From assembly GCA_963920705.1 (NCBI GenBank), contig OY987231.1:21243024-21307023 (forward strand): a DNA stretch of 64,000 bases, read 5' to 3'. Positions 34,172-61,713 of the stretch are shown here, piece by piece. Both the position numbers and the translations under genes were made by a program. The stretch comes from Odiellus spinosus. Taxonomy: Eukaryota; Arthropoda; Arachnida; Opiliones; Phalangiidae. Numbering within the stretch: position 1 is the stretch's first letter; each line of letters begins with the position of its first letter. The notes beneath the pieces were generated by a model, which was not told the DNA's origin, did not search any database, and saw only the letters and a list, made by a program, of their open reading frames with translations.

Positions 34172-36052
34172 TCAGAATGTCGTATTTTCAATGTGGCAGT
34201 AAAGGAAAGCCCAATAGCTAATGCAAAATATCGACATAATGAGAGGGAAAAGCCATCGGCAAATTTTATCTAATTTTTCTGTTGTCGCGCCTAAATTCTG
34301 ATTTCTTCCTAGTGCATTAACTGAGGATGATGTCTTAGAATCTCTAGTCTCAAGAACTTTGATGTTGCTTCTCTAGAATAACATTTAGTCAAGAGTTTTG
34401 TATGAGAGCTAGTTTTCGCGATTTAGAAAATGAGATAAACTTACTTTGAACTTAGTAATGTCGCCCACCTTCCTCTTCAACCGACACCTGTACGTGTAGG
34501 CGATGCTGTACTCGATAATAGAGGCAAACACCAGAGTTAGGCAAAAGAAAAGCCAAACGTCCATGCTGGTTATGTACTGAACTGGGGGTAACGAATTCCT
34601 GGCTTCTATCATTTGAGTACTTGTGGTTAAGAGAGCGGTTACACCGAGGGTAACTCTAGCGGGTGCAGCTTCCACGTCAATGTAGAACGAAATCCAAGAC
34701 AAGATAACTACTAAACTACTTGGTATATAAAAATTCAGGAAACTACTGGTCAGGCGTCTGTAAAAGGTCACGTGGCTTCTCAATTCGGTGTAATTGCCTG
34801 CCAAAATGTAGAGTTTCATATTACTTATATACTTGGAAGTTGGATAAATTCTACCCACCACTTAACCACACTTCCGTTTCCTGGTCTAGTCTCGGTTTCG
34901 AGATATAGAACTGCAAGGGTTGCATTTCGTAGAAGTAACCAACTCCTCCGTCTCCATAATTTTCGTTCCAACGTAAAATTACTTTGTTGTCTGGATTTAA
35001 CACTATTAAGTAACATTACGAGTCAATAAAGGATGCTGGACCACTTAAATATTTGGCCTTTATACTTAGTCCTATTCTGAATTCGCAGTGTTGCGTATCA
35101 AGTGGAAATAGAGAAAAATGCATTGGACATGATACTCGAAACATAAATCTGGAAATATATAATGAGCTTAGAATTTTTTGTCCACAAATTTTATTCAACC
35201 CTTATCACCTTACGGTCCTCAACCCATCATACCTTTCTGTACATAATATTTCTTTATTCTCGAAGTATTTGTATCCTCGATTGATAACTGTTGACACGAA
35301 TGTTACAATTTCTAAACTATTAGGAAATATGACATCGGGTTTCCACATGCAATCGGTCAGAACGGGCGGTAATAAAACGGGATACATCTGATTGACAACA
35401 GTGATATTCATTCGATGATTGCTCCATTTAGTGTATAGATAACAATGCAAACGAAAGTCCTATACGAAATTAAATTCGTTTATTAATTTGGAAAATTTAC
35501 AAACGATACATCATTACCATAGAATCCTCCCTAATTTGATCAATATCCAAAACCATGATGCCTATGTACACATCTTGTACGAATCCTACATAAAAATTTG
35601 AAATATTTTAATTGTAAATAGTAGAAATTTTACCTAGCTCGAACTGGAAGCACGAGCGAAACTATAACTAACTGTCGTCTCCATGATTTGTTTATTTAGA
35701 TATAGTGGTTAGCCCACCTTTGTTCTCGCTGCCAACTCGAGATAGAATCAATATAGAGTTTATGATATTTACCCGAGAGGGTTGGATTTGATTTTAAATA
35801 GCAGCTTTTTATATCTCCCTCTTCGATGTCTCGTGATTCGTCCAAACTAAAAATTAAGTAATAACTAAATATCATTATCGAACTAGGATTGGTTATGAAA
35901 GAAACAAAATCCTACCTAAATGTTTTTTTAAATAGTAAAATTTGTTTCTTACAAGTTAAAATATTTAATATTATGGTTATAATTTACGTTATATTTAATG
36001 CTTGAGCTCCAGAGTTAGAGAAACAGATATAAAGGCAAAATATCCATATCAT
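34172..36052 (-). CDS. Cys-loop ligand-gated anion channel subunit, copy A
   Basis: Eight exons on the minus strand: 36052-35988, 35846-35773, 35585-35518, 35459-35233, 35148-35066, 35002-34859, 34797-34445 and 34372-34172. They sum to 404 residues with all phases consistent. Exon 1 encodes a signal peptide (MIWIFCLYICFSNSGAQA). The extracellular domain has WKPD (loop A region), the 13-residue Cys-loop from C152 (CPMHFSLFPLDTQHC) and YGDGGVGYFYEMQPLQF. Exon 7 holds M1-M3 with PAR at 266-268 before M2 (VTLGVTALLTTSTQM); PAR is typical of anion-selective GABA, glycine and GluCl-type subunits. A short M3-M4 loop and M4 (DKICRWLFPLIM...) lie in exon 8. No loop-C cysteine pair is visible. Ligand and subfamily cannot be told by eye; an arthropod group such as the pHCl-like receptors is possible. 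Closest relative in the window is copy D. Confidence 0.9.
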
Positions 36053-36207
36053 CGTAACGAATATGGGGAAAATGGCTTAGGTCGACCAAATTCCCCGGGT
36101 TATATTAGGACCATTTTCAAATATCGTGCTGAATGAGATGGAAAAAAGAAAATAAAGCTTATAACACGGTTGAAACGTATCACGCAAAGTGCTAGCTTAA
36201 AATATAT

Positions 36208-36633
36208 TAAAGTGAGGCTGCCACCATTTGTTTTTCGAAGGTTTATGGATTATATTTTAAGTGTTTTTTATACTATTATAAAGCCATAGTCAAAATTTAT
36301 ACCTCTAAGTTGGTTTCGTGAATTTCATTTTCAAGAATTGAAATATTCCCGAATCTGTTTTTACACGCGCGTGACATCAGAATTGATTTTCATTTTAAAT
36401 GTGCTCATCAAAGAAATCGAGGAAAATCTTCTAGTTTGGTCAAATATAAACCAAATTGGAAAAATCCAATAAAATTCGATCAAATTAATAGACTAAATGA
36501 TGTAACCCGTATTCAATAACAGTCACGCGACCATACCGACGACGTACATATTAAAATTTTGAACCATAATTCCAAACAAGGTACTCAAATTATATTTGGA
36601 GCTGAAGAAAAATTCGTTGCAGACTCACTTTAA
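36208..36633. mobile_element. Family-4 MITE upstream of receptor copy A
   Basis: Ends TTAAAGTGAGGCTGCCACC and a degenerate GCAGACTCACTTTAA. The paralogous upstream region of copy D (about 47460-47515) runs from the shared left flank to GTATTTTCACTTAA without the element. Insertion therefore followed duplication, or copy D lost it. Confidence 0.75.
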
Positions 36634-37254
36634 ATCTAACTTTTGTATTTTCACTTAAACACGTTTTAGCACTTAAATGAAGTATAGCTTCCCACTTTCT
36701 ACGGGGTTTCCGAAGGGTTCCAGGGATTGCCTCCAGGCTAATTGATCAGTATTGAATTTAGCGCTAAAACATCCTGCAAAGCTAGTCTTGTTGGAAATAC
36801 ATGATCCACTTCTTTAAATTTAATTATGTCAGGGTTTGTACGAATCCGTGACTTTTCCAGTTTACATTTTTGGTTTTCTTTTGATACAAGAAAAAAATTT
36901 AAAAATCCCTGACTTTGACTTTCAAAAGGTTGTTTTTAAATCTCTGACCTTTGCCTTAATTTTAGAAATTGCTAACGACATTGAAATTACATAATGGACT
37001 CTTCCATTAGAATTGGTTGGTGGATTAGGCCTATTTACACGATAAGATGAGTGCGCGTCATAGTTCACGACCCTATTCTATGAGAGGGGGTAGTAAAAAG
37101 AAGGTTGCTCTATTTTCCTTAAACGAAACCAGAGTCGTCACCAGGGCAACTAAATTTTTTTTTCTTGCCACTCACATCAGCAACGTCCCTTTTTTATAGG
37201 CTTTGAGGGGTGGAGCTTTTCCATGGGTTATGAATCGGAAAACAGTAAAGACAG

Positions 37255-37878
37255 TAAAGGCGCATTCGCAAAGGAGCGGAAATTTGAAGCGAAGCTGAAA
37301 CCAAAAGCTGAAAGCGGTTTAAAAACTGCGTCGTCATTTTCGGAAAACCAGTTTCCGCATCTGAAAACACTTTTAATTTCCCGCTGAACATTTCACATAG
37401 AAGATTGTTTTGTTGCCGATAGACGGCAGAATGATTGCTTCACAAGCTATTTATGTAAATTTTAAAATGGCGGCTGTAGACAACCAGTTGTTATTACTTC
37501 TGTTGTTAAGAAAATAATTATTACTTTTAAAAATGTTGAAACATAGCTAGAAAAAAACCGCCTAATTATTATGGTTTGAAGTTGATCTTCGAATCTCTGT
37601 CGTCTGCACGTTTTTTTTTCTCTTGGTCCCACCCCCTTATCGCTTTTTTTGATTGGATCTTTCATTCACGTGGTACGAAGCTGAAACTGAAAGATCAACT
37701 TCAGTTGATCTTGGCTGAAACCAAAAATTTCCCTGCTTTCAGGATCCGCTTTCAGAATCAGCTTGAAGAAACCAGATTTAGCCTATATGCGAAATGGTAA
37801 GCTAAAACTGGTTTTAGAAGCCCGCTTTTAGTTTCAGTATTCAGTTTCAGCTTTCCGCTCCTTTGCGAATGCGCCTTA
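37255..37878. mobile_element. 624-bp MITE with AAGGCGCATTCGC ends
   Basis: Inverted ends TAAAGGCGCATTCGCAAAGG and CCTTTGCGAATGCGCCTTA are followed inward by AGCTGAAAC repeats in both orientations. No meaningful open frame. No second copy seen in the window. Confidence 0.8.
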
Positions 37879-38600
37879 AGAAGAATATTAATTCTGTTGG
37901 TCTATTTATTTATGAATTCCTAGAAACGATAAATCACAGAAACCTAGGAATTATTTATTCATTTAAAGACCGTCGCACACTCGCGATTTCCATGAGTTTT
38001 AGGGAGAGGGTAAAATTTAGATACATAATCTATTAACATTTTAAATGGCGAGAAAACTGAAATATTAACTTACTTGATCCTAGAGTGTCCGTTTCATTCT
38101 CAAAACTACCCTAAACTGATTTCAAAACACCGAGAGTGCTGCCTCTTTAATCTATATATTGAATTATTAAAGCTCATAGGATATTTCGATAAAACTCTAA
38201 AACAAATCGATGGAAAGAGTGAAACGTATCCTTAAGATTAAAACTTAGTTTAGAAAATAGGATTTTTTTGTCCCGCCTATATAAAAACATAATCTGGTTG
38301 CAAACCGAAGCCAATTGCTATGAGACCCTTTCTTTTAAAATAAGTTTGAATTAATTAATTACGATGGGCACGACCTAGATATGTTTAAAAACTATCCTTA
38401 AGATCATGAACATAGTGTCATTTTTCATTGGGAAAATGTTTTCGTAACCATGGAGCCGTAACATAGGGACGTCAAAGTATCTTATCACCATATTCTTAAG
38501 TGATATATCAATCAGTAACGGGTTTTCAGTGATCCCTGGTTAAAATACCATGTAAAACGGCACAAAACGTAATTCAAATACAGGAGCAGCTAAGACGAAC

Positions 38601-38764
38601 CCGAGGGGGCAGACACTCGCGAACTCAGGTGTACAAAATTTTTGAACTCTTTGCACTATCAAAGCTGAACTCAGAGTTCATAAGAGTTCGAACTCAATGC
38701 ACTGTCAAAGCTGAACTCAGTGAACTCAAATGTACAGCGAATTCAAGAGTGTCTGACCCCTCGG
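38601..38764. mobile_element. hAT-like MITE
   Basis: Inverted ends CGAGGGGGCAGACACTC and GAGTGTCTGACCCCTCG. With those ends, the flanking GACGAACC on both sides is a perfect 8-bp target duplication. The interior has two tandem GAACTC...TTTG modules. Best copy of its family here. Confidence 0.85.
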
Positions 38765-38902
38765 ACGAACCTAGCGCGTGGCTACTGGAGATCTAAGTTG
38801 AAGATTGCTGAACTTATCTTAAGCCTCCCATCATAACTGCAGCTTTGCTTAATGTTTCTTTATCTCCGCTTTCTCTTAGTGCGCAACCACCTTAAAAACT
38901 AG

Positions 38903-41382
38903 CTAATTAGTGTTGCGGTAAAGAAATAAGAAATAACTTATGCAAAATATTATCATCACGAATGGAAAAAGCCATCGCGAAATTCTGTCCAATTTTTCTG
39001 ATGTCGGAATAAAATCTAAACTCTTTCTTTCTTCATTTTTTGAGGACCAAGCGGTTGTTTTCTTTCTTTCGTTTTCTTTAAATAAATTCACCTGGACAAA
39101 CATTTCGCTCTCATGGATCTGAACCGAATTTTATTAATTGACCAATCAGTATCATAGCGACGGCGACCAAAGCCCGTGACTGCCTTCGGGACCAAGTTAA
39201 GTGTTTAGTGATGGGTTTCCGGGTGTATTGGGCTGCAGTCTGGCCTGGATCTTATCGATACGCCACTGATATGACCACTGAACAATAAATCTGTCTTACT
39301 TTTGACTTCGGTCTTTCTCGCTTCTTATTATTGAACTGATTTCGATACGAGTAAGCGACACTGTACTCGATGAACGAGGCGAAAACCAGGCTGAGGCAGA
39401 ATAACAACCAAATATCCATGCTGGTAACGTATTGCACTGGTGGTAAAGAGGTCCTGGCTTGTATCATTTGGGTGATAACTGTCAATAATGCCGTTACTCC
39501 GAGCGTAACTCTACCGGGTACAGCTTCAACGTCAATGTAGAACGAAATCCACGACATAATCACCACCAAAGTACTTGGCAAATAATAATTAACGAAACTG
39601 CCGGTTAAGAGGCGATGGAAAGTGACGTGAGCTTGTAATGTCGTAAAACTATCTACATAAACATATTAATAAGCGAATTAACGATAAAACCAAGACGTAA
39701 CAATTGGCACTCGGACTTACTATTTCCCCAAATTTCAATGACTGAATCTACTGACGGGGTTGAAATTCGAAATTGCAACGGACGAATATCATAAAAGTAA
39801 GCGATCCCGCCATTACCGATATATTTGCTCCACTGTAAAACGACTTGTTCATTCGAGTATTCCACTGTATGTAAAAATACAAAATGTAAAGGATTCGTTT
39901 TACGTAATATCAGAAGCCGATGAAACCCTCCTTTGAAGTCTACTACTCCAATGTTCCATATAGCGCTTCTCTCTGTATCGGTAAAATTCCCAATTTTACG
40001 AGTTAGAAGGGGTCCTACTTCATCCCCCCTGTCTACGGAAAATTGGAAATTCTCTCTCTCCACAAACGACGACGTTTATTGGACGAACTCCGAGGCTGCT
40101 AGAGATATTCGCTCGACGAACTCCCGCTCCGACAATATCTACCGTTAGGAGGCGTACGAATCGCGATTTTTGAAACTAACCCATACAGAGAGGGGTAGAC
40201 AAGACCCGGGAGTAATAGACTTCAAAGGAGGGTTTCATCGGCTTCTGGTAAAGTTAAAAATTATTACCCAAAGCAATTTTGAAAACGCAGTGTTGAGAGT
40301 CAAATGGGTACATAGCGAAATGCATGGGGCAAGAAACTTGAAACATGAACCTAAATAAAGTATTAATTATTAAACGTGTGAAGATAATTCCCCCTAAATG
40401 AATATTACCTTTCGAACCAATGTATTTCGCCAGTCTGGTGATATTTAAATCCGCGATTGGGGACGGGTTCCTTGAAGGACTTAATTTCGTCCGTGTTTGG
40501 AAAATAAATGTCCGGTTTCCACATACATTCTCTTAGTTTCGGTGGTATTAAAATTGGATTAGTTTGGTTTAAAACGGTGAGGTTTATCCGAGAATTTTTC
40601 CACATTGCGTATAAATAACAGTGTAAGCGAAAGCTCTGCGATTATAATAAAACATGTATCAATCAATGCAGAAGCCGATGAAACCCTCCTTTGAAGTCTA
40701 CTACTCCAATGTTCCATATAGCGCTCCTCTCTGTATGGGTAAAATTCCCAATTTTACGAGTTAGAAGGGGTCCTACTTCATCCCCACTGTCTACGGAAAA
40801 TTGGAAATTCTCTTTCTCCACAAACGACGACGTTTTTTGGACGAACTCCAAGGCTGCTAGAGATATTCGCTCGACGAGCTCTCGCTCCGAAAACATCTAC
40901 CGTTAGGAGGCGTTCGAATCGCGCCTTTTCAGAATAACCCATACAGAGAGGGGTAGACAAGACCCGGGAGTAATAGACTTCTAAGGAGGGTTTCATCGGC
41001 TTCTGATCAATGGTAAATAAAGAGTTGAGCTTTCTTACCATAAAACTTTCACTTATTTGATCAATATCTACTACCATGATCCCAACGTATACATTTTGCA
41101 CATTTCCTTTACATTAAAGAAATTCATTTAAAATGGTAAATATACATTTCCAGTAATTTGTAAATACCGGATAAAGTTGGATCCGATTTTGCGTAACAAT
41201 TCTTTAAATCCTCGTCTTCTATTATTCGAGTATCGTCTAAACTAATGTGAATTTAATTAAAACATTAATCGTAGAAGTTGGTCAATACCATACACTAAAC
41301 CTCACGTAATATTCAATGAGAGACCAGCGGTTGAAGAGGTCCAAAAGCAAGAGGCTAGACAAATGAACGTTACTACTTCCAT
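38903..41382 (-). CDS. Cys-loop ligand-gated anion channel subunit, copy B
   Basis: Exons: 41382-41306, 41241-41168, 41106-41039, 40635-40409, 40350-40268, 39864-39721, 39652-39300 and 39091-38903, giving 404 residues. Exons 2-7 have exactly the lengths found in copy A. Signal peptide MEVVTFICLASCFWTSSTA. The Cys-loop reads CPMHFAMYPFDSQHC. The M1-M2 junction reads PGR instead of PAR, followed by VTLGVTALLTVITQM. M4 is LDRISRWLFPFVM. Two complete family-1 MITEs sit in introns 3 and 5 (40669-41005 and 39911-40247), enlarging introns that are short in other copies, without touching coding sequence. The frame is intact throughout. The effect of the Ala-to-Gly change in the selectivity motif is not known from sequence alone. 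Confidence 0.9.
39911..40247 (-). mobile_element. Family-1 MITE copy 8 (intron 5 of copy B)
   Basis: Complete 337-bp copy. Flanks GTAATAT and GTAAAGT are a diverged 7-bp duplication. Reverse orientation on the + strand, so it is sense-like relative to the host gene. Confidence 0.9.
40669..41005 (-). mobile_element. Family-1 MITE copy 9 (intron 3 of copy B)
   Basis: Complete 337-bp copy with perfect 7-bp target duplication ATCAATG. It lies 33 bases from exon 3 and 33 bases from exon 4, so it fills almost the whole intron. Confidence 0.93.
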
Positions 41383-42123
41383 ATCTTTCACGGTTTAGAG
41401 ATACAAAATCGTAATACTCGCCAGTGTTTAAAATGGCTATTTACGAACTTCGCGATGCTAGAATATTTCAGGTAGCGGTCTCATCAAAAGTAACGTCCGG
41501 GTATTTATAAAATAGTATATAATACGTTCAACTCAAACGGAATCTTTGACAACTACAACTTTTGTCGTCAATGAAAACCTATTTTTGGTTTTCAAACTGA
41601 GAACTTAGTATCGATTTTCCATTGTTAAACTAACGTTAAGTGGATCAAACATTAGTCGAAACTCGATAACCGGTCGATTTTTACCTTAATATTATTACAT
41701 TGTAGAACCTAAAACGCATTGATACAAAAAACTTAGAAACCATAACACTTAAATCGTGTTGTTTCGCTGGCATCACTGTGATGTCTTGGGCCAAATAGTT
41801 TACCCAAAGGGGTGGGTTTGTGGGTAGAAAATTGAACTGAAACAAAAACGTTAATAACAGCAAAGTTCAGAGCGTGAGTAAAGAATGATTATAATGAAGT
41901 TAAACGTCAGAATCAAATGGAAAAAATATCATAACAATTATAAAGATTGGTTTCAGAGTGCTTCCGCGTATTTTGAGTGTTCCACATTAAGCCGCCTTAT
42001 TTATACCACAATATAATGATTTCTTAGATAAACATTGATAAAGTGAATGTGATATAATGAAGAAAAAACGCGAAAGCAATTGTTCGCGAACTTGATTGAA
42101 ATATCCGTGATCACGCCGCCTTA

Positions 42124-43729
42124 TCAAAACTTAATTTCAGTTTTCATGTAGACGAATGAAAAATAACTAATGGCAAACATTAGCATAACAAGAGGAAAAA
42201 GCCATCGAGATATTCGATCTAATTTTTCAGATGTAGGAACCGAATTAAGATTGTTCTCTGATTGATTTATGGAAGCCCACGCGGGATGTTTCTTAATGCG
42301 ACGATCCTTTGCAGTTTTCTCCTATATATTTATAAGTACCATACGTTCGTATGAATAATTACGTAGAATTAAACTGCGGTGAAATAATAAGCAATCGTAC
42401 CTTTTCTTTCGCCACTCTCTTAGATTTATTTCGGTACGAATAAGCGACGCTGTACTCGATGAATGACGAGAAAACCAAAAGTAAGCAGAAGAATAACCAG
42501 ATATCCATACTCGTGACGTATTGCACAGGCGGCAACGCGTTTCTAGCTTGTATCATTTGCGTGCTAATAGTTAATAAAGCCGTTACGCCAAGAGTAACCC
42601 TAGCGGGCACGGCTTCTACGTCGAGGTAGAATGATATCCAAGATAAGATAACCACCAAACTACTTGGCATGTAATAATTAAGAAAGCTGCCGGTTAGAAG
42701 TCGATAGAAAGTTACGTTGGCACGCAGTGTCGTAAAGGTATCTAAGTCGAGTAAACAAATTTAGATAAAATCGGAATTCCAAATCAAATATACCACCAGG
42801 GGATTATTTACCATCAGCCCACTTTTCGGAAAATGAATCTATTGATGGTGGAGATATTCGAAATTGCAAAGTGTGCATATCGTAATAATAAAAAAAGCCT
42901 CCGAACTCTTTATCCCAATGTAAAATAGCCTTGTCGTCCGAATTTGCAACTATAAGCGTATTTCATGTCAGACTGATATTTCATACGCGAGAAACGCTCG
43001 CTTACCCAAGGCGATCCAGAAATTGCAGTGTTGAGTGTCGAATGGGTACATGGCAAATTGCATAGAACAAGAGACTCGAAATATGAGCCTTTAAAATGGT
43101 TCATTTTTGAGTTTTAAAACGCAATTAGCAAATTTTTATCTTTCATTACCTTTGAAACCAGTATATTTCGCCATTTTGACGATACTTTATGCCACTATTT
43201 GGAACAGGATCCGTAAAAATTTTAACGTCAATGCTGTTTGGAAAGAAAATATCTGGTTTCCACATACATTCCCCGAGTTTGGGTGGTAGAACAACCGGAA
43301 GGGATTGGTTGTAGACGGTGATGTTCAAACGTGGGTTGGTCCAAGTGGTGCAGACGATACAGTGTAATCGAAAGTCCTGCGTTTTAGTAGAGATAATAGA
43401 ATATATGGTTGGACAAAATATTCTCTTTGTTAAGTTTTTTATTATTTGATGGCGCCAAGATAAAGAGATACACAGTGCCTAACTTCTCCTTTAATTTCCT
43501 TCTGATAGAACTATCTTACCATAGTGCTTTCGCTAATTTGATCAAGCTCTACGACCGAAACACTAACATTCGCACTTTGCACGACTCCTGTAACGTACAG
43601 AAAAAATTAAAACATAATTTTGCGTAATTATTTTTTTTTGTACAAATCGTACAACCTGTCAAAGTAGGGTCAGTCCTCAAATAGCAGTTTTTCAAATCGA
43701 TATCGTCTATACCATGAGACGCGCCTAGC
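42124..43729 (-). CDS. Cys-loop ligand-gated anion channel subunit, copy C (exons 2-8)
   Basis: Recovered exons: 43729-43656, 43587-43520, 43376-43150, 43088-43006, 42949-42812, 42741-42401 and 42321-42124, all in frame to TGA. Exon 3 reads VVQSANVSVSVVELDQI, the most diverged version of this exon in the array. The Cys-loop is CSMQFAMYPFDTQHC, with Ser for the usual Pro after the first Cys. PAR is present before M2 (VTLGVTALLTISTQM). M4 is LDRISRWLFPLVM. I could not find a first exon with ATG and a GT donor (see 43938-44012), so the gene may use a distant first exon or may have lost its signal peptide. Confidence 0.8.
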
Positions 43730-43937
43730 CTACGTATAACGTTTGTAAAAAATAAACAAGAAAAAACAACAATTATATTTTTAAAGGGAAAGCACGATAT
43801 TTGGCTGCTCTAGTAAATTTTTCGGGAACTAATTCTAACATTTAGGTTGCCATTTCAAAAAAGAGTTTACTAGTGGGCGAGGGACCTTTCAAAAACGACT
43901 ATATTTATGGCGATTGTCTAAGTTAAAAGTTAAGAAT

Positions 43938-44012
43938 GTATATTATATGGCCAAGCAGGCAACGCAATGGCTAAAACTGTCAGACCCAACAGTAAAAACC
44001 ACGATGACCTTG
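43938..44012 (-). other. Possible decayed signal-peptide exon of copy C
   Basis: The minus strand reads SSWFLLLGLTVLAIALPAW followed by NIH, resembling the hydrophobic signal sequence and the LNIT exon end of the other copies. There is no ATG in this frame, and the expected AC|GT donor after AATATA is replaced by CATTC. It looks like a degraded exon 1. Confidence 0.4.
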
Positions 44013-45265
44013 AATTAATAGACTTGAAAGAATAACTGACACTCGCCAAGTATCTCGCGAGGTGGCAGAAAAAAAAACAGTGGTTATTTAGAATTTACTG
44101 GAACCAAAATTTGATTACAAATTTATAATAACGCTGATTATATTTAAAAACAGAGGGGCTTGGTACTAAACGCTGACCGTTTGAATTTTAAATTCGAATT
44201 TGAGATTCAAGTTCTGGAGAATTGTTTATTTTTTAATTCTATTTTTCTAATAGAATAGTAATTATATTACAAAAATCGCCAAACTATACATTAAATTATT
44301 TTTCAATTATGCCAAACTCCCGTCTTATTAACTTACGTAATATTCAAAGATTTGCAGCCTGAGAAACTGCATATGAAAAGATGCGCGACTAACATCCAAT
44401 AATAATTTTGTTCACGATTGCTCATATTTCTTAAATAAATCGCGTAAAGTAACTCGCACTCCCTTATCGTATTTGCGTCTAAGCTTGACTATATTGTTTT
44501 AATAAAACGATCCAAGTTGCTTGCCGCAAAATTACTGAACCAAGAAATGACTTTCTCGGTTGCTAAGTTATTATTAAAAGCGCGTATAGGAATATGGAAG
44601 TGGCTAACTTAGCGTCGTGATATTGCGAAGTTTACGAGGCTAAAAGACTTAAGGATCAAGAGGTTAAACCAGTTAGATTAATTTTAACATTGAACTCCTT
44701 TCTGTTGGTCGTACTTTGGTTCGATATAAACTTTACGCTCCGAAGACGTCCAAAAGTGTTTTAGACGATTAAGAAATCCATGAATTTCTTTCGTAATATA
44801 TTTATAAACTCTATGGTAATGTTCCAATTGGGCAGTTCCCCTATGCGCATTTCCCATTAGCGCTTTTGCACTTTCGCGGTTATCATCAAGGTTTTGCGTG
44901 CCAATAAGCGAACGCTTTTTCAATTAGGCTAAGCAGCATATTGTTCTATTTAATTTACATATATAGAGTATGCTTATTTTAGCGTATATTTAGTTTAAAA
45001 AAATCCATATTCGAAACGCTTCGTTGGTTGCCCAGATCAGTTCAATATTTGAAGCTATCTAATTGGGCTATTTACATTTTAAGCTCAGATTTAGAAAACA
45101 CTTCCCTGAAAATTCCTTTGCACTTATTAGTCCCTCGATCAAAGTTTATTAAAAACTGCCAAATCGTGTTTAAAATCGTGGCGCTTTAAATAGTTATTAA
45201 CAATAGATTAGAGAACTATTTAAGCAATTAGGTTTAGATATGACGTCGAAAAAAAGCTTTAAATA
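44013..45265. other. Spacer between receptor copies C and D
   Basis: AT-rich, no exon or repeat supported. The far end (about 45200-45260) matches the 3' flank of copy A and contains the empty site of MITE copy 7. Confidence 0.5.
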
Positions 45266-47323
45266 TCAGAGTGGCGTATTATCAGCGTGGCAGTAAAGGA
45301 AAGACCAATAGCTAATGCAGAATATCAACATAATGAGAGGGAAAAGCCATCGACAAATTTTATCCAATTTTTCCGTTGTAGCCCCTAAATTCTGATCTAT
45401 TCCTAATTCATTAATTGAAGACGAAGACTTAGAATCTTCAGTATCAATAACTTTGATTTTGCTTCCCTAGAGTAACATTTCATATTAGTCTCGTATAAAT
45501 TCTATTTATTTTGATTGAAAAATGATAAAAAAATTACCTTAAACTTAGAAATGTCGCGCACCTTCCTCTTCAACCGACACCTGTACGTATAGGCGATGCT
45601 GTACTCGATAATAGAGGCAAACACAAGAGTGAGACAAAAGAAAAGCCAAACGTCCATGCTGGTTATGTACTGAACTGGGGGTAACGAATTCCTGGCTTGT
45701 ATCATTTGAGTACTTGTGGTTAAAAGAGCGGTTACACCGAGGGTAACTCTAGCGGGTGCAGCTTCCACGTCAATGTAGAACGAAATCCAAGACAAGATAA
45801 CTACTAAACTACTTGGTATATAAAAATTAAGGAAACTACTTGTCAGGCGTCTGTAAAAGGTCACGTGGCTTCTCAATTCGGTGTAATTGCCTGCCAAAAT
45901 GTAGAGTTTCATATTACTTATATACTTGGATATAGAGGTCGGGGTTTGAACAAGATTATCCACAAATATTTGGTTAATCAGTTAATCATAAAAAATAATC
46001 GGTTAATTATTCGCGATTACATTGCATTTATCATAGACTTCCCGTGGATAGTTTCGAGATATGAATTAAGATAAAACAAACAGAAATTATCTTATCCAAA
46101 CCCCGACCTCTACTTGGATAAATTCTACCCACCACTTAACCACACTTCCGTTTCCTGGTCTAGTCTCGGTTTCGAAATATGGAACTGCAAGGGTTGCATT
46201 TCGTAGAAGTAACCAACTCCTCCATCTCCATAATTTTCGTTCCATCGCAAAATTACTTTGTTGTCTGGATTTAACACTATTAAGCAACATTACTAGTCAA
46301 TAAAGGATGCTGTATCACTGTAATATTTCGCATTATACTTAGGCTTATTCTGAATACGCAGCGTTGCGTATCAAGTGGAAAAAGAGAAAAATGCATTGGA
46401 CATGATACCCGAAATATAAATCTGGAAATATATAATGAGCTTTTATTTTTTTTTGTCCAGGAATTTCCATCAATCTTATCACCTCATTACGGTCCTCAAC
46501 CCATCATACCTTTCTGTACATAATATTTCTTTATTCTCAAAGTATTTGTATCCTCGATTGGTAAGTGTTGAGACGAATGTTACAATTTCTAAACTATTTG
46601 GAAACATGACATCGGGTTTCCACATGCAATCGGTCAGAACGGGCGGTAATAAAACGGGATACATCTGATTGACAACAGTGATATTCATTCGATGATTGAT
46701 CCATTTAGTGTATAGATAACAATGCAAACGAAAGTCCTATACAAAATTAAATTCGTTTACTAATTTTGAAGATTTGTAAACGATATATCATTACCATAGA
46801 ATCCTCCCTAATTTGGTCAATACCCAAAACCATGATACCTATGTATACATCTTGTACGAATCCTACAAAACAGAAATATTTTAATTATAAGTAGTAGAAA
46901 TTTTACCTAGTTCGAACTGGAAGCACGAGCGAAACTAGAGCTAACTGTAGTCTCCATGATTTGTTTATTTAGAGATAGTGGTTAGCCTACCTTTGTTCTC
47001 GCTGCCAACTCGAGATAGAATCAATATAGAGTTTATGATATTTACCCGAGAGGGTTGGATTTGATTTTAAATAGCAGCTTTTTATATCTCCCTCTTCGAT
47101 GTCTCGTGATTCGTCCAAACTAAAAATTAAGTAATAACTAAATATCATTATCGAACTAGGATTGGTTGAAAGAAACAAAATCCTACCTAAATGTTTTTTT
47201 AAATAGTAAAATTTGTTTCTTCCGAGTTAAAATAGTTAATATTATGGTTATAAATTACGTTATATTTAATCCTTGAACTCCCGAGTTAGCGAAACAGATA
47301 TAAAGACATAATATCCATATCAT
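45266..47323 (-). pseudogene. Cys-loop channel subunit, copy D (frameshift in Cys-loop exon)
   Basis: Exon positions mirror copy A: 47323-47259, 47119-47046, 46862-46795, 46736-46510, 46421-46338, 46276-46133, 45890-45538 and 45466-45266. Seven of eight lengths are identical to copy A and the sequence is nearly so. Exon 5 is 84 bases instead of 83: a run of six T replaces TATTT, so after CPMHFSLF the frame reads into a stop within the Cys-loop. Downstream M1-M4 coding sequence stays open in its own frame. This is either a recent pseudogene or a homopolymer error in the assembly. Intron 6 is 242 bp instead of 61 bp because of an inserted hAT-like MITE at 45933-46112. Signal peptide MIWILCLYICFANSGVQG. 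Confidence 0.85.
45933..46112. mobile_element. 180-bp hAT-like MITE in intron 6 of copy D
   Basis: Perfect 16-bp inverted ends TAGAGGTCGGGGTTTG / CAAACCCCGACCTCTA, flanked on both sides by CTTGGATA (8-bp target duplication). Copy A has a 61-bp intron here without the element, so insertion is younger than the A/D duplication. TAG-type ends plus 8-bp duplication suggest the hAT superfamily. Confidence 0.92.
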
Positions 47324-49177: not shown

Positions 49178-51316
49178 TTAGATTTTTAACGAAATTTTAA
49201 TTTCAGTGTTGTAAAGAATAAACGACCAATAAATTACGCTGAAGGTGCACATCACTAGAGGAAAAATCCATCGAGACATCTTATCCAATTTTTCCGGAAA
49301 CTTATAAGTTCCTACTTTGACCGTTTCTTCATTAAATGGCCAGGCTTCGAGTTTTCGACTGCCAAATCGATGGCCAAAAAGTTTAACGGTGTTCGACTGA
49401 ACAAGCATTATTGTTTGAATATTATATTAAAAGTTAACATCCACTAATGTTAATTTGAGCCATATACTTACTGATCTTTTCTCGGTTTGTTGAGCTCTAA
49501 TTTTGGGCTGATTTCGATACGAGTAGACAATGCTAAACTCGATGAAGGAGGCGAAAACCAAACTCATACAGAAGAACAGCCAAACATCCATGCAGGTTAT
49601 GTACTGGACTGGTGGTAACGAACCCCTAGCTTGAATCATTTGAGTGCTAATAGTTAAAAGAGCAGTGACGCTTAGTGTGACCCTCGCTGACACGACATCG
49701 ACATCTATGTGGAAAGATATCCATGACAGGACGACTACCAATGTGCTTGGAAAATAGAAATTCAGGAAACATCCAGTTAATCGTCGATAGAATGAGATAA
49801 TCGCTCGTAGTTCTGCATATTTAACTAATGAAGTTGGGTAATTTGGCAAACATTGATGTCACAAGAAGACATTAACGAAACGTATTCGTTATTTACGTAC
49901 CGTTGTTACCAAAATCATCAATATGATATGACAGAATCGGTTCGGAGATATGAAACTGCAAGGGGTGCATTTGTTCGTGGTAATCAATGCCTCCGAGTTT
50001 TCCAATATTCGTATCCCAACGAAGATTAACCATGTCATTTGTATTACCCACTATAATTAGGAATAAAGCGCATTTTATAATCGTGAATATATGTTGAATG
50101 AATTCATCTTTTGCCTGATTGACGCACTCTACGGCTCATAGGATGGCGCGTCCAAATAGATCGCGAGATTAGACATGAGGGAAATTCGCAATGGCCCCAA
50201 AAAACACAGTTTTAACATGGTCTTGCAGCAACTAAGTACTATGATCTACAACAACGTCATTACGTATGACTTACTTAAGCTGATTTTGAAAATGCAGTGT
50301 TGCGTATCAAACGGATACATGTAAAACTTCATAGGACAAGCAATTCGTAAAATGAACCTAAAATATTACAACCTCTATAATAAGATCGATACGTCATGAC
50401 TGAGTATTGTACTAAATTACCTTTCTTCGCGCAAGATTCGCCCGTCTTTGACGAAGTATTTAAAAGATCGATTCGGAACCATATCAACAAAAGTTTTAAT
50501 GTCTACCGTGTTAGGGAAATATATGTCAGGTTTCCACATGCAGTCAGTAAGCTTGTTCGGCAACATAAAAACCTCCGGTATCGGCTCCATTAAAAGGGTG
50601 ACATTCATTCTAGGATTTATCCAAGACGCTTGAAAGTAACAATGCAAACGAAAGTCCTAAAAGATAATACAGATAGTTCTAAAATTGTTTTTAAGTTCGC
50701 GGTTAACTTGCCATTAAAGCTTCGTTGATTTGATCGATTGACAAAACATGAATTCCAGTCAGCACCTCCTGAACCCTTTCTATGAACGTGTAAAATATTA
50801 TTATTCTAGTGAATCAGCAACTTAAAGTTCGCGTAAAAGAATATCAAAAATGCAAACGAAATGGAAATTTCACTAATGGCATAGCGAACCATCTTTGGAA
50901 TACATGTACTCCTAGACGCGTTAGATAAGGGCGGGGCTCGGATTCTACACAAAGAGACTAATCGTGTCGGAATTTAAAAATTTTACACCTTCTCTGGGTG
51001 ACTAGATTTTAATAAACTTAAAAAACCAATTTAATTATCAGACTAAAGAATTATTTCGTAAACCTGTTGTATCAGTTGGATCTGTTCTCAAGTAGCAATC
51101 ATCTAATTCTGAATCGTTAATTCCATGTAAGGGATCCAAACTGTAATATATAAATATATATCTATAAAAAAAGTATAGCTATTTTACCAGAATTAATTTT
51201 CACATTTATAAAATTTCATACGTTATACTAAATTGACGCGCATTGATAAATGTGCAGAAGTACACAAATATTAGTATAAGATATATGGCCTTTCCTGCCA
51301 GGACGTCAGTACTCAT
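49178..51316 (-). CDS. Cys-loop ligand-gated channel subunit, copy E (SAR variant)
   Basis: Exons: 51316-51222, 51140-51064, 50779-50712, 50656-50421, 50357-50275, 50050-49901, 49824-49472 and 49396-49178, giving 426 residues. Relative to copy A, exons 1, 2, 4, 6 and 8 are longer by whole codons. The signal peptide is hydrophobic (IYLILIFVYFCTF). The Cys-loop is CPMKFYMYPFDTQHC. The M1-M2 junction is VVSARVTLS: the proline of the PAR motif is replaced by serine, unlike its twin copy F, which keeps PAR. M1 also has HIDVDV where other copies have YIDVEA. M4 is LDKMSRWIFPLVM. Intron 3 uses a GC donor (ATG|GCAAGT), supported by exon 3 being exactly 68 bases as in all copies. Intact frame. Confidence 0.9.
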
Positions 51317-52912: not shown

Positions 52913-55338
52913 TCAAATTTTTATTTCAGTGTTGTAAAGAATAAACGACCAATAAATTAGGCTGAAGGTGCACATCACTAGAGGAAAAATCCATCGAGAC
53001 ATCTTATCCAATTTTTCCGGCAACTTATACGTTACTACTTTGACCGTTTCTTTATCTAAAGGCCATGCTTCGGGTTTTTGATTATCAATAATTTTAACGG
53101 CGTTCGACTGATGATGCATTGTTGTTTGAATATTATATTAAAAGTAAATATCCTCTATTAAAAAAGCCACGATTTGGTTATTTAAACCATATACTTACTG
53201 AGCTTTTCTCCTTTTGTTGAGCTTTGATTTTAGAATGATTTCGATACGAGTAGGCGATGCTGTACTCGATGAAAGAGGCGAAAACCAAACTCATACAGAA
53301 GAACAGCCAAACATCCATGCAGGTTATGTACTGGACTGGTGGTAACGAACCCCTAGCTTGAATCATTTGCGTGCTAATAGTTAAAAGAGCTGTGACGCTT
53401 AGTGTGACCCTCGCTGGCGCGGCTTCAACATCAATGTAGAAAGAAATCCAAGACAAGACGACTACCAATGTACTTGGAATATAGAAATTCAGGAAACATC
53501 CAGTCAATCGTCGATAGAATGTGATAATTGCTCGTAATTCCGCATATTTAACTAATGAAGGTGGGTAATTAGGTAAACATTGATGTTACGAGAAGACATT
53601 AACGAAACATAGTCGTTATTTACGTACCGTTGTTACCAAAATCATCAATATGATATGACAGAATCGGTTCGGAGATATGAAACTGCAAGGGGTGCATTTG
53701 TTCGTGGAAATCAATGCCTCCAAGCTTTCCAAGATTCGTATCCCAACGAAGATTAACCATGTCATTTGTATTACCCACTATAATTAGGATTACAGCGTGT
53801 TTTATAATCGTGAACATATGTTGAATGAATTCATCTTTTGCCTGACTGACGCGCTCTCACGTAATGGCGTGTCGAAATAGATCGCGCGGTATTAGGTTTT
53901 AGAATGAGCTAGCGATATGACTTGAAACGTCACCGAGGGCCGTAGCGTTCGGATCAGACATAGGGGAAATTCACAATGGCCCCCAAAAAACTATTTCAAC
54001 ATAGTATTGTATAGCAACGAACTGTAGGTCTACAACAAATGACTTACTTAAGCTGATTTTGAAAATACAGTGTTGCGTATCAAACGGATACATGGAAAAC
54101 TTCATAGGACAAGCAATTCGTAAAATTAACCTAAAACATTACAACTACCTTTGTAATAAGATCGATACGTCATGAATGCGGAATAAATTACCTTTCTTCG
54201 CGCAAGATTCGCCCGTCTTTGACGAAGTATTTAAAAGATCGATTAGGAACCATATCAACAAAAGTTTTAACGTCTACCGTGTTAGGGAAATATATGTCAG
54301 GTTTCCACATGCAGTCAGTAAGCTTGTTTGGCAACATAAAAACCTCCGGTATCGGCTCCATTAAAAGGGTGACATTCATTCTAGGATTTATCCAAGACGC
54401 TTGAAAGTAACAATGCAAACGAAAGTCCTAAAAGAGAGTACCGATAGTTCTAAAATTGTTTTTAAGTTCGCGGTTAACTTGCCATTAAAGCTTCGTTGAT
54501 TTGATCGATTGACAAAACATGAATTCCAGTTAGTACCTCCTGAACCCTTTCTATGAACGTGTAATATATTATGATTATAATGATTATTTATTAAAGTGAT
54601 ATTTCAGGGACTCAGAACATCAAAACTATAAACGAGAACCATCTTCGGACAAAATACACGTAACCCTACATGCTTAATTTCATTTCCAAAAACAGGATCA
54701 ACAGTATAGCCCTGGGTTCCACGTTGATTTCAAAAAGGTTCAACTCAGAACCAAATAAGGCACTCCCATACAGGGTTACGTGACTTTGAACCTCCAAAGG
54801 TTCAATTTTGGTAGATTTTCATTTACAGTGATGTATTTATGCCACTTATTTTATGTTTATTTTCAATTTTCTTAGCCACATAACCTTTGCTGGTTGGACT
54901 AACGAAGACCTAGCTTTCTAGCAGTTACATTTAAAAAAATAAAAACCTTGTGACACTAACAAAATACATAACATGGAGTCTAATTCTATAAAAATTCAAC
55001 GTTTATGACATTTTTTAAGTTTTTTTTAAGGTTTTAAGAAACTTAAAAAACAAATTTAATTGTTAAATTAAAGAATTATTTTGTAAAACCTGTTGTATCA
55101 GTTGGATCTGTTCTCAAGTAGCAATTATCTAATTCTGAATCGTTAATTCCACGTAAGGGATCCAAACTGTAATATATATAAAAGAAAATATACGACTATT
55201 TTACCATAATTAATTTTCTCATTGATTTTATAAAATTTCGTACGTTATACTAAATAGATGCGCGTTGACAAATGTGCAGAAGTACGCAAATATTATTATA
55301 AGATATATTCCATTTCTTGGCCGTACGACAGTACCCAT
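52913..55338 (-). CDS. Cys-loop ligand-gated anion channel subunit, copy F
   Basis: Exons: 55338-55244, 55166-55090, 54550-54483, 54427-54192, 54130-54048, 53777-53628, 53551-53199 and 53107-52913, giving 418 residues. Twin of copy E: exons 1-7 have the same lengths, and exon 8 is 24 bases shorter. Cys-loop CPMKFSMYPFDTQHC. The M1-M2 junction keeps PAR (EAAPARVTLSVTALLTIS). M4 is LDKMSRWIFPLVM. The GC donor of intron 3 is shared with copy E. The first exon gives MGTVVRPRNGIYLIIIFAYF, a signal peptide after a short polar leader. All frames intact. Confidence 0.9.
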
Positions 55339-56688: not shown

Positions 56689-57107
56689 CAGAGGTATATA
56701 ATAACCCCCTTCGGGGGGGAAGTGTGAAAGGTAGGCAAAATCGACGAACAACGAGTGCCCGGCGTAAATCGCGGCGGATCGACACACCGCTTTACTCCCA
56801 AAAAATAGTTACACCATTTTGAACCTCACTAAATTTTCCCTACGCACACTTCCGGAACTCGCGAGCGGAAGTCAACCTTGGACTCCATTTTAACAGACAG
56901 CCTGACTCCCGAGACAGGAAGTTCTAAACACAAATCGAGCCGTCTTGTTTATACAAAGACCATTTACTAGAGTAGCGACATTGAGAAGTCCAGCGCGAGC
57001 TAGTGGCCTAGATAGTCAGCAGCGGGCTTTTGTTGTTCGTGATTTTTAGCATTGGTAGTATAGGGGCTTTCATACTTCCCCCCGAAGGAGGTTATTATAT
57101 ACCTCTG
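56689..57107. mobile_element. Family-2 MITE, full length
   Basis: Ends CAGAGGTATATAATAACCCC and its complement, with 7-bp target duplication ATATTAC on both sides. Interior closely matches 1193-1610. Confidence 0.9.
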
Positions 57108-57289
57108 ATATTACTGAACACGAAAACCATATTACGCTTATATAAAATTGTACTTTACAACAATTACTTAAAAACATTTATTTTTAAATCGTTTTAGTTA
57201 TTTCCATTTTCTGGAAATTATTCTAGGTGTATCGATATTGATATATACGCGCATGTTGGGTGAAAAAAAATTGCCCGAATATAGTTTCA

Positions 57290-57436
57290 TTTAAATTGAA
57301 TTTTCGTGTTTCTAAAAATAAACGACCAATAAAAAATTCAAAATATCAAAATGGCTAGAGAAAAAAATCTAACGCGATAGCTTTTCCAATTTTTGAGGTT
57401 TCTTGGTAGATGACCCCGCGACTTCTTGTAAACTCA
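57290..57436 (-). pseudogene. Isolated, decayed M4 exon of a lost receptor copy
   Basis: The minus strand reads LQEVAGSSTKKPQKLEKLSR, then a stop where the other copies have Trp (SRW), then IFF...ILNFLLVVYF and another stop. The +1 flank matches the M4 exons of copies E and F (AAAATTGGAAAAGC region, AAACGACCAATAAA). No M1-M3 or extracellular exon remains nearby. It lies 1.1 kb downstream of copy G's own M4 exon. Confidence 0.7.
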
Positions 57437-58209
57437 GTTTACAAGTCGATTTGCAACGTAATGTCTAAAATTAAAAGGGTATAGGAACAAATTTTCTAAG
57501 TAACTTTTTCCCACACCTCTAATGTCTACTATATTACTGATAAAGAAATTTGCGAGGGGTGTTATTTGTTAAGGGAAAACACATTTTCTATAAATGTTTC
57601 ATACGGACATAGTCATATTTTTAAATCCATGAGTGAACGGTGTTCACGGGGAGTTTTGCAACGAGCGTATCTGTGTGTGTATGTTAAGCCTGTACGTTGT
57701 TAATGTGTGTGCATATGTTCACACCGCGTTAACAGGGTTCATCATTGACTACGTTTACTTGAGGGATCGAATAGCGCTTTACTTGAAGGCGCTTTCCGAT
57801 ATTGCGCTTTTCCAGGAGTTACACGAGGGCGAAGAGCGCTTTATCAGAAAGCCCTTTCAACTAAAGCGCTCTTCCAACCCTCGTTTAATATCGCTCAATT
57901 ATAATATTGGATTCGTTCACGTGGTACTCGGGGAGGTTAATTTGGATCTTTCCAACTTGTTACGAAATATGAGCGTATTGATCAATAGCCTCATTTGTAC
58001 TCGGAGCAAACTTACACGTAGGTATACACTATAATTGTATGTTTCTCTTAAAATGAAATAAAAAACATCATTAACGATAAAATACGATTTAATCTCTCTC
58101 TCGCACAGAGAAAAATAATTTACGTGAGTTATTTCAAGTGCCAGACGTTTAAATTGCTCGTGAGTTTGAAATATATTTATAAGAATTCGTATTTTACAAT
58201 ATATATATA

Positions 58210-58546
58210 CAGAAGCCGATGAAACCCTCCTTTGAAGTCTATTACTCCCGGGTCTTGTCTACCCCTCTCTGTATGGGTTATTCTCAAAAGGCGCGATTCG
58301 TACGCCTCCTAACGGTAGATGGTTTCGGAGCGGGAGCTCGTCGAGCGAATATCTCTAGCAGCCTCGGAGTTCCTCCAAAAAACGTCGTCGTTTGTGGAGA
58401 GAGAGAATTTCCAATTTTCCGTAGACAGGGGGGATGAAGTAGGACCCCTTCTAACTCGTAAAATTGTGAATTTTACCCATACAGAGAGGAGCGCTATATG
58501 GAACATTGGAGTAGTAGACTTCAAAGGAGGGTTTCATCGGCTTCTG
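58210..58546 (+). mobile_element. Family-1 MITE copy 11
   Basis: Complete copy with 7-bp duplication ATATATA. Ends 13 bases beyond the stop codon of receptor copy G, so it lies in that gene's 3' untranslated or flanking region. Confidence 0.92.
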
Positions 58547-58559
58547 ATATATATTATTG

Positions 58560-61500
58560 TTAAAAATGAATTTCAGTTTTTGAGAAAAGAAATGACCAGT
58601 AAACGATGGCAAAAACCAACATGGTACTTGGAAAAAGAAATATAGAAAACTTGTCAAATTTATTTTTAGATTTCCTTATGAACTCTGGTTTCGCGCTTTC
58701 AGGCGTCCAAACCACGGGTAAGGGTTTCTCCAAAATGACTTTCTCATTTCTCTGCTATAAAAATGAAAAGTTGATGTAGTAATTCAGTTTAAGGTACGGC
58801 AACCATAGGAATTTTCAAACTGTTTTTTAACCAGTTTCAGTTTTGAATGTTCAAATCAACTTTTCAAGCAAAACAGGTAAATATTTAGACAAAGCATTTC
58901 TCTAACTGACCCCAAAATATTCCATTTTGACCTTTCCAAAACGGTTTGAAAGTTTCTAGTGTGAACGCGGCTTTATGGATACAGGTGTGCGTAGGGCTGG
59001 GTGGTACCTAGGACTATTACTTAATAGAAAACGATGAATAACAAAACCTAGAGTTCATGAGCGTCCTCCAACGGCAAATAGTTGCAAAAGTAGGAAATAA
59101 CAAAACATATCGGCCTTTTCACTATCCGTAGCTGTAACATAGTTTTATTAGTTCCTATTTTTGCCCGCACTGTTTTCCGCTAGAGGACGCTTATGAACGT
59201 CAGGTTTTGTTATTCATTTTTATCAGAAGCCGATGAAACCCTCCTTTGAAGTCTATTACTCCCGGGTCTTGTCTACCCCTCTCTGTATGGGTTATTCTCA
59301 AAAGGCGCCTTGGAGTTCGTCAAAAAAACGTCGTCGTTTGTGGAGAGAGAGAATTTCCAATTTTCCGTAGACAGGGGGATGAAGTAGGACCCCTTCTAAC
59401 TCGTAAAATTGTGAATTTTACCCATACAGAGAGGAGCGCTATATGGAACATTGGAGTAGTAGACTTCAAAGGAGGGTTTCATCGGCTTCTGTTTTTATCT
59501 AAAATTATTCTAGTTATACTAGTTTGTACGTGGTCTGACTAGAAATTTGTGTGAAGAAGCGTTATTTGAGTATGTAGGGAAGTTATACTTACAGGTCTAA
59601 TTTTTATATTAGAGCTAAGTGGTTTTGTCGATTGAATGGAATTTGAATACGTGTAAGCGATACTGTACTCAATGAAGGACGCGAAAACTAGACTTAGACA
59701 GAAAAACAACCAGACGTCTAAACTGGTAATGTACTGAACTGGTGGTAAACTGCCACGAGCTTGTATCATTTGAGTGGTGATAGTGAGCAAAGCCGTTACG
59801 CCCAACGTGACGCGAGCCGGTGCCGTTTCAACGTCAATGTAGAAAGACAACCACGATAAAAAGACGACTAAACTACTCGGTAGATAGTAATTTATGACGC
59901 TACCAGTAAGTCGACGATGGAATGTTATGTTGGTCCAGAGCTCCGTGAAGTTACCTGCGTTTAGTAATAGCAAGGAGGAAGGATGAAGAAAGAGAGGCGA
60001 AATGGGACATGGAATTGCTACTTTTCAGGACCATCTCTTAATTTTCGTTCCTATATTTTAACATCCCCTTCCTCATCTCTGCGTGTTAAAGGATGAGCGA
60101 TGTTACCGTCGACTTTAGACGTCTGCCTAAACTTATTAAAGTTGGCGTATGGATTTTATTCGGTACGAAATCATCCAATTTTTTACGTCCCCCATCCTTG
60201 GTAATAACATAAGGATGACCTTCCCTATTAATGTTTTTTGCTGCCATGACCTTACTGGGTTTTCAAGTATATAAGATTTAGGACAATGGAGTTGTTTTGG
60301 TAAAATACTACCAGAAGCCGATGAAACCCTCCTTTGAAGTCTATTACTCCCGGGTCTTGTCTACCCCTCTCTGTATGGGTTAGTTTCAAAAAGCGCGATT
60401 GGTACGCCTCCTAACGGTAGATATTTTCGGAGTGGGAGTTCGTCCAGCGAATATCTCTAGCAGCCTTGGAGTTCGTCAAAAAAACGTCGTCGTTTGTGAA
60501 GAGAGAGAATTTCCAATTTTCCGTAGACAGGGGTATGAAGTAGGACCCCTCCGATCTCGTAAAATTGTGAATTTTACCCATACAGAGAGGAGCGCTATAT
60601 GGAACATTAGAGTAGTAGACTTCAAAGGAGGGTTTCATCGACTTCTGATACTACTAAGGTTTTCAACCAATAAATTGCGTATAGCGATGAAGAGAAATTA
60701 ACAATTTATCACCTGTTATCCAAGACTCTGTTTTTATATCACTGAGAGGAGGAGAGATTCGAAACTGCAGAGGTTGAATGTCGTAATAATAAAACACACC
60801 GATGTCTTTCTTCCAATGAAGAAGAACTTTCTCATCCGAATTAAGCACTGAAATTCCAATCACGCGACAAATATTTCTACCAGCGAGTGTAATTATAAAA
60901 AGTATTAAATAATTATCATACTTAAAGCAATTTTAAAAAAGCAATGCTGAGAATCCAAAGGATATAGTGAAAACTCCATAGGACAAGATACTCGAAACAT
61001 AAACCTGACGTCAGAAAAAAAAATTGGAATAAAACGTAAAACGCGAAGTTTAATTATGAAAATACCTTTCAATAAGGTAAATTTCACCGGTAGAGTAATA
61101 TTTAATGCCACGGTTTGGAACAGTATCCACGAAGGTCAAAATTTCTTCAGTATTTGGAAAAATAACGTCTGGTTTCCACATGCAATCGCAAAGTTCTTGC
61201 GGCAATAGAATTGGTTTTGTTTGATTTTTAACAGTAATACCAATCTCTTTATTTTTCCAAATAATGTAGAGGTAGCTATGTAATCGAAAATCCTACGAAA
61301 GAGTAATTTTTAGTTTGTCAACGTTCTCAACGTGAATCTTTGTTCGTGTACCATGTTTTCTTCATTAATTTGATCTATGTCCATGATTGCTACACCGATA
61401 TACACATCTTGACGGTTGCCTACCAACAGGAAAAGCAATTACATCGATGTAATGTATCACGAGCAGAATAGTGGAAATAATTAATTATTACCAAAAAGCG

Positions 61501-61713
61501 TTGGGTTTGTTTTGTAGTTACAATCCTTCAATTCTTCGTCTTTGAACTTTTCTTCGATATTTAATCTGTTTCGTAGTTAAAAAAAATATCATCTTAAAAC
61601 GCGAAATATTCGATTTAAATTGTAACATTTTCATACGTTATATTAAGACGTTGACACGAAACATTATAAAACAATGTAAGCAAGCACAAAACTACGCATC
61701 CTTTGATATTCAT
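58560..61713 (-). CDS. Cys-loop ligand-gated anion channel subunit, copy G
   Basis: Exons: 61713-61637, 61565-61492, 61419-61352, 61292-61066, 61004-60922, 60847-60713, 59954-59593 and 58754-58560, giving 406 residues. Signal peptide MNIKGCVVLCLLTLFYNVSC. The Cys-loop is CPMEFSLYPLDSQHC. PAR is present (ETAPARVTLGVTALLTITTQM). This is the most diverged member. Exon 4 reads DFRLHSYLY where all others have Cys in place of that Ser. M4 reads FDKFSIFLFPSTM where the others keep SRW or CRW. Introns 6 and 7 are long (758 and 838 bp) and hold family-1 MITEs at 60312-60647 and 59224-59491. Exon 8 also has an unusual QRNEKVILEKPLPVVW linker. Frames are intact. Confidence 0.88.
58850..58976. mobile_element. 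CGTTCACACTAG-type element, one clear end
   Basis: Right end TTTCTAGTGTGAACGCGGC with the family's TTTCCAAAACGGTTTGAAAG interior. The left end is diverged. Confidence 0.45.
59224..59491 (+). mobile_element. Family-1 MITE copy 12, internally deleted
   Basis: Only 268 bp. The central GCGATTCGTACGCC...CTAGCAGCC stretch is missing, with both termini and the 7-bp duplication TTTTTAT intact. Lies in intron 7 of receptor copy G. Confidence 0.92.
60312..60647 (+). mobile_element. Family-1 MITE copy 13
   Basis: Complete 336-bp copy with 7-bp duplication ATACTAC. The right terminus has one change (CGACTTCTG). Lies in intron 6 of receptor copy G, 66 bases from exon 6. Confidence 0.92.

Follow-up and report, generated by a model that had tools for sequence, protein, structure and literature searches.

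The window analysed here, a stretch of 64,000 nucleotides of the Odiellus spinosus genome (C7:21243024–21307023 of 443 Mb; contigs are denoted by C and a number), carries on its minus strand a tandem array of seven intact genes for chloride-type Cys-loop receptor subunits. In arthropods, anionic Cys-loop receptors mediate fast inhibition, and acaricides and insecticides act on them. The seven genes belong to a larger lineage-specific expansion, of which about 51 loci were counted genome-wide from the match tables. Purifying selection is seen in the array, and the ligand pocket is devoid of the residues that hold amino-acid transmitters. The best explanation, to which we assign an even chance, is that the genes encode subunits of pentameric anion channels, that their lineage-specific clade of some 50 loci lies next to HisCl and grew through tandem duplication and dispersal, and that the nervous system is the likeliest site of action.

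Structure of the array genes

Gene models were obtained with a purpose-written spliced protein-to-DNA aligner run over the region, and the signal-peptide exons were placed from hydrophobic ATG stretches with a phase-2 donor directly after Asn-Ile or Ser-Ile. Positions are given in window numbering, which is also used beyond the window ends. Seven same-strand copies, c1–c7 (Table 1), were modelled, and their outermost coding bases, 34172 and 61713, coincide exactly with the limits given for the array in an earlier reading of the sequence (the original prediction). Each copy has a single open frame with one terminal stop and encodes 385–426 amino acids. The first exon (59–95 bases) encodes the signal peptide and ends in phase 2; it is followed by exons of 74/77, 68, 227/236, 83, 135–150 and 341–362 bases, and then by the last exon. 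The common 8-exon plan and the 68-base exon 3 had been foreseen and were found in all seven models, while the expectation that exon 5 is 84 bases long in one copy failed: it has 83 bases in every copy. This 83-base exon was considered as a hallmark of the array and rejected, being an inherited feature that also occurs in the GluCl, Lcch3-like, HisCl-like and pHCl-like genes of the same genome. Both Pfam domains, the ligand-binding PF02931 and the transmembrane PF02932, scored above the curated cut-offs in all seven copies.

An additional copy, c8, lies beyond the window at 74497–69934, and its exons 4 and 5 are fused (310 = 227 + 83 bases). The models are uncertain at two points of c3, namely its last-exon acceptor and its start codon (a second ATG is located 30 bases upstream), and at the last-exon acceptor of c8. 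No additional copies were found at 76000–94000, at 1–34150 or within the 10 kb preceding the window, where the best scores were at most 81 (real copies score about 900 or more).

The copies resemble each other far beyond chance: the protein identity among the paralogues is 44–62%, apart from the two recent pairs, c1/c4 and c5/c6 (Table 1). By the Nei-Gojobori count, dN/dS is 0.26 for c1/c4 and 0.36 for c5/c6; thus, both recent pairs are under purifying selection. In the remaining pairs compared, the synonymous sites are near or past saturation. As judged from the sequence, the seven window genes are apparently working.

Ligand pocket, pore and extra cysteines

The residues of c1–c8 were read from an alignment with the glycine receptor (GlyR), whose numbering is used here. 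The carboxylate-binding Arg65 of loop D is found in none of the eight copies, and at position 159 of loop B all of them have Met or Val instead of an aromatic residue. The clade is not alone in these losses, because the HisCl-like row of the same genome lacks both residues (Ala65, Leu159) and the Lcch3-like row also lacks Arg65; an amine-like ligand, not an amino acid, would suit such a pocket. The loop-C cysteine pair and Glu157, both present in the HisCl-like row, are missing from all eight copies; the absence of the pair had been anticipated for the seven window copies. On the other hand, several residues are kept throughout (8/8): an aromatic residue at 202, another at 207, and Arg131. Tyr63 is found in 7/8 copies, the exception being c3 with Ile. 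The Cys-loop cysteines are aligned in all eight, with 13 residues between them.

The triplet before M2 is PAR in five of the seven window copies (6/8 when c8 is included), in line with the original prediction that most copies carry it; the two others have PGR and SAR (Table 1), and SAR is also seen in the Lcch3-like row. Since PAR or a similar motif precedes M2, the copies are predicted to be anion-selective subunits, and this, together with the two Pfam domains, agrees with the proposed chloride-type identity. Judging from their residues and grouping, they would be assigned neither to GluCl (the loop-D arginine, the loop-C cysteine pair and the grouping all differ) nor to Rdl/GABA receptors or GlyR (Arg65, the loop-B aromatic and the grouping differ).

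Two extra cysteines, both noted in the original prediction, are present in every array copy. One is located at position 92, with the Trp of WKPD two residues further on, and is also carried by all four other clade members read; it occurs in none of six outside rows (GlyR, GluCl, Lcch3-like, two pHCl-like and HisCl-like), and two further outside models, L024 and L031, likewise lack it. The other lies in exon 2. For the non-array members L007, L029 and L036, the best exon-2 matches were at or near the shuffled level (16-residue score against the array exon-2 core), so that the exon-2 Cys is established for the eight array copies only. That these two cysteines may form a disulphide is put forward as a proposal only.

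The M3 position corresponding to GlyR Ala288, which we take to be linked with the response to ivermectin, is Phe in seven copies and Leu in c2. Thus, the ivermectin response is predicted to be weak or absent.

Tree placement and genome-wide extent

The tree of the M1–M3 region started from 50 sequences (41 own-genome loci, the eight array copies and one GlyR), and 48 rows remained after two shorter than 75 amino acids were removed. Nicotinic-type loci and some loci lacking fetched DNA were left out, and GlyR served as the sole outside reference. In the 48-row tree, 28 clade rows fall on one side of a branch with support of 97/100, and their link with the HisCl-like rows is supported at 49/84. 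When five long rows and three duplicates of other rows were removed, the resulting 40-row tree gave 100/99 for the clade, 96/87 for the clade plus the HisCl-like rows, and 95/88 for c1–c7. The branch leading to the clade is long (0.61–0.86 changes per column). In the free tree, c8 falls outside the C11 genes; a constraint uniting all eight array copies was not rejected (approximately unbiased test, p 0.20).

The GluCl row, the Rdl-like rows and GlyR all fall apart from the array copies in both trees, and the pHCl/insect-group-1-like rows (labelled from motifs) form a group of their own in both. The array copies are not one-to-one orthologues of the own-genome GluCl, Rdl-, Lcch3- or HisCl-like genes; the outcome that would have spoken against a local expansion, orthology with single-copy-type genes, was thus not found among these rows. 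The GluCl label is backed by the best PDB match, 3rhw (E 4.5e-103), and the Rdl label by 9she, named GABA receptor subunit beta (E 1.2e-52). The best PDB matches of the HisCl-like row are glycine receptors; hence, the names HisCl, Lcch3 and pHCl/insect group 1 for own-genome rows are our assumption, made from motifs. With this assumption, the expansion probably sits beside HisCl. Some of these outside genes are seen at more than one place: a pHCl-like gene with an identical M1–M3 protein occurs at C4:331002 (+), C4:564349 (−) and C3:3543461 (+), and a HisCl-like one at C12:8769648 (−) and C12:9009288 (+). These duplicates, some of them inverted, are either recent duplications or assembly duplicates.

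In the whole genome, at least 133 exon matches to PF02931 and at least 134 to PF02932 were found, and the M1–M3 segment of c7 used as a query gave 106 matches. A run bigger than the window array, 24 same-strand M1–M3 loci, is located at C13:12965969–13067890, and five further same-strand loci are located at C13:13832218–13855886; both runs belong to a sister group of the array, and PGR precedes M2 in those members of the C13 runs that were read. Four loci are clustered at C11:21.787–21.806 Mb, and others are scattered on C2, C5, C7, C11, C12 and C17. The count of about 51 is composed of 28 tree-placed loci, 22 assigned by their position inside the two C13 runs, and one at C17:11.57 Mb with the PGR motif. 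It includes some C13 matches that contain stops and are possibly pseudogenes; four C11 loci near 5.77 Mb, one C2 locus at 17.50 Mb and several weaker ones were excluded as unsure. The 28-row clade and this count bear out the lineage-specific expansion that had been suggested.

Comparison with known receptor groups

The original prediction also started from the premise that such subunits are usually single-copy in arthropods. This premise fails for chelicerates: Rispe et al. (2022, PMC9219234) give 54 non-nicotinic subunits for a house spider and 46 for Ixodes ricinus. Of the overall interpretation, the chloride-type family and the lineage-specific expansion stand, and the single-copy premise does not. 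In the open-licence literature searched, no expansion of such size with these residue changes is described.

The closest parallel, compared by description, is found in ticks. The same study (PMC9219234) describes three long-branched divergent histamine clades (His4–His18), which are likewise lineage-specific anionic Cys-loop genes near HisCl and partly form a tandem cluster, namely eight genes adjoining HisCl genes in I. scapularis. There, the cluster of the divergent histamine 3 clade adjoins HisCl genes, whereas here the HisCl-like loci are on C12 and the array is on C7; the tick divergent histamine clades comprise 14 to 18 loci, as compared with about 51 here. According to that study, expression in the synganglion is raised for the large majority of tick Cys-loop genes, including the divergent ones, and lowered for His12.

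Within the genome, the nearest rows in the pruned tree are of the HisCl1/HisCl2 type. They share with the array copies the absence of Arg65 and of the loop-B aromatic and the anion-type pore mouth, but differ from them in having the loop-C cysteine pair and Glu157 and in lacking the extra Cys before WKPD. The best solved relative is the vertebrate glycine receptor alpha (PDB 6ubs, E 8.9e-49 with a draft c6 model as the query), with which the PAR pore and the Cys-loop are common; Arg65, Phe159 and the loop-C cysteine pair of that receptor are absent from the array copies. The pHCl/insect group 1 (pHCl-2 or Hodor, and SecCl) likewise consists of anionic Cys-loop subunits, but the own-genome rows to which we give this label keep Arg65 (2/2 read), unlike the array copies. 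Non-neuronal expression of insect group 1 is known in Drosophila (PMC4938653).

Possible function

In the best explanation given above, a subunit exported by means of its signal peptide would enter a homo- or heteropentamer, and a small ligand, probably resembling an amine and different from glycine, GABA and glutamate, would bind under loop C, held between the retained Trp/Phe202, Phe/Tyr207 and Tyr63. Binding would open the M2 pore with its PAR, PGR or SAR mouth, and the resulting chloride flow would inhibit the cell. By analogy with the divergent tick histamine clades, the likeliest site would be the nervous system, and the copies may differ in ligand or kinetics. A clade of about 50 loci with a pocket unfit for amino-acid transmitters would imply either a ligand new to this branch or an unusually rich inhibitory system. 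For structure-function work, the array supplies seven intact, clonable members, including two recent pairs.

Several observations weigh against this explanation. The HisCl link had just 49/84 before eight rows were dropped, and it depends on about 101 columns, one outside reference and a HisCl label taken from motifs. The loop-C cysteine pair is missing. The pocket positions are not hypervariable (0.489 versus 0.520 elsewhere in the ligand domain over 169 columns, P 0.38; six array rows, 15 positions); because they vary about as much as the rest of the domain, ligand diversification inside the array is unsupported. Finally, tick His12 has lowered expression in the synganglion (PMC9219234), and in the mite Dermanyssus gallinae one pHCl transcript and three Acari-specific, chloride-channel-like transcripts are reported to be enriched in the midgut (PMC10183022).

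These D. gallinae transcripts, together with the large tandem expansion and the altered pocket, speak for the main rival, close to the role suggested in the original prediction, in which the copies would be peripheral sensors: chloride channels with a chemosensory role or gated by pH or metals, situated in sensory neurons or in the epithelium of the gut or excretory organs, and akin to the insect zinc- and pH-gated channels by function but not by descent. This is possible but doubtful. The copies do not group with the own-genome pHCl/insect-group-1-like genes, the pocket does not show the hypervariability just tested, and the comparable tick clades are mostly enriched in the central nervous system, according to PMC9219234. 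Taken as an analogy, the findings in ticks point to the nervous system rather than to external chemosensing. Chloride channels of the nervous system with a non-amino-acid ligand are the reading that we favour.

Alternatively, the copies may be accessory subunits of heteropentamers whose agonist site is provided by a different subunit, such as the own HisCl-like one. As this idea would expect, none of the eight copies has the loop-B aromatic, Arg65 or the loop-C cysteine pair. We nevertheless regard it as rather unlikely, since the aromatics at 202 and 207 and, except in c3, Tyr63 are kept, and the HisCl-like row itself lacks Arg65 and the loop-B aromatic.

A more speculative thought is that a class of about 50 genes with a remade pocket and an extra Cys before WKPD (with its exon-2 partner Cys in the array) serves as combinatorial sensors for environmental or internal chemicals. 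Among anion channels, this class would then correspond to the chemotactile receptors of cephalopods, which are nicotinic-derived Cys-loop subunits expanded for a lineage-specific role; the array copies are of the GABA/Gly/His type, and the likeness lies in the lineage-specific expansion of Cys-loop genes. We consider this decidedly improbable.

That the copies are plain extra histamine receptors, i.e., duplicated HisCl genes still answering histamine, is very unlikely. The clade stands beside the HisCl-like rows in the pruned tree, and both groups lack Arg65 and the loop-B aromatic, but the long branch to the clade and the absence of the loop-C cysteine pair and Glu157, both retained in the HisCl-like row, argue against it. 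A decaying pseudogene array, to which the one M4-exon relic might point, is scarcely credible, given that all seven frames are intact, with their splice sites and signal-peptide exons in place, and that dN/dS is well below 1.

Individual copies and other observations

The relic between c6 and c7 was compared with the last exon of c5 and showed 70% identity over 74 bases; in tblastn, its E values were only 0.007–0.025.

Table 1 Array copies and relic in the window (aa, amino acids)
Feature	Position	Strand	Description
c1	34172..36052	−	8 exons, 404 aa; PAR before M2; recent pair with c4
c2	38903..41382	−	8 exons, 410 aa; PGR before M2
c3	42124..44395	−	8 exons, 385 aa; PAR before M2; last-exon acceptor and start codon uncertain
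c4	45266..47323	−	8 exons, 404 aa; PAR before M2; 92% aa identity with c1
c5	49178..51316	−	8 exons, 426 aa; SAR before M2; GC donor after exon 3
c6	52913..55338	−	8 exons, 418 aa; PAR before M2; 89% aa identity with c5; GC donor after exon 3
Decayed M4-exon relic	57293..57428	−	Stop and frame shift; remnant of a further copy
c7	58560..61713	−	8 exons, 406 aa; PAR before M2; Ser in place of the beta-2 Cys (RLHC) seen in the other copies

A dispersed repeat, about 250 bases long, is found at 58284–58533 of the window, and similar sequences lie near 34000, 39911, 40669, 48296, 59307 and 60463. At least 40 copies with 93–100% identity were scored genome-wide, and the element has been inserted repeatedly around the array. 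A neighbour of the array is an exon of an NDNF (neuron-derived neurotrophic factor) gene at 21540–22922 (+), and a frame at 28972–29565 (+) has a PH-domain match under the Pfam cut-off (22 versus 25.1 bits). Minisatellite-like stretches, which translate as short repeats in several frames, were seen at 6–485 of the window and upstream of the L029 gene model (C7:14826000–14835999).

In the mitochondrial sequence, the COX2 frame begins directly after the COX1 stop; since insects and crustaceans carry a tRNA-Leu between these two genes, this order points to a chelicerate or myriapod. Elsewhere in the genome, the insect-odorant-receptor-type domain PF02949 has a single match (E 6.3e-8), and a winged-insect source was rejected on these two grounds. 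The TTAGG repeats likewise accord with an arthropod other than an insect. The 30-base word (TTAGG)6 has 9,597 exact matches, for example from C1:35430304 onwards, and many among the matches listed are contig-internal. Several partial COX1 copies resembling mitochondrial insertions occur in a nuclear contig (C17:1112807–4393978).

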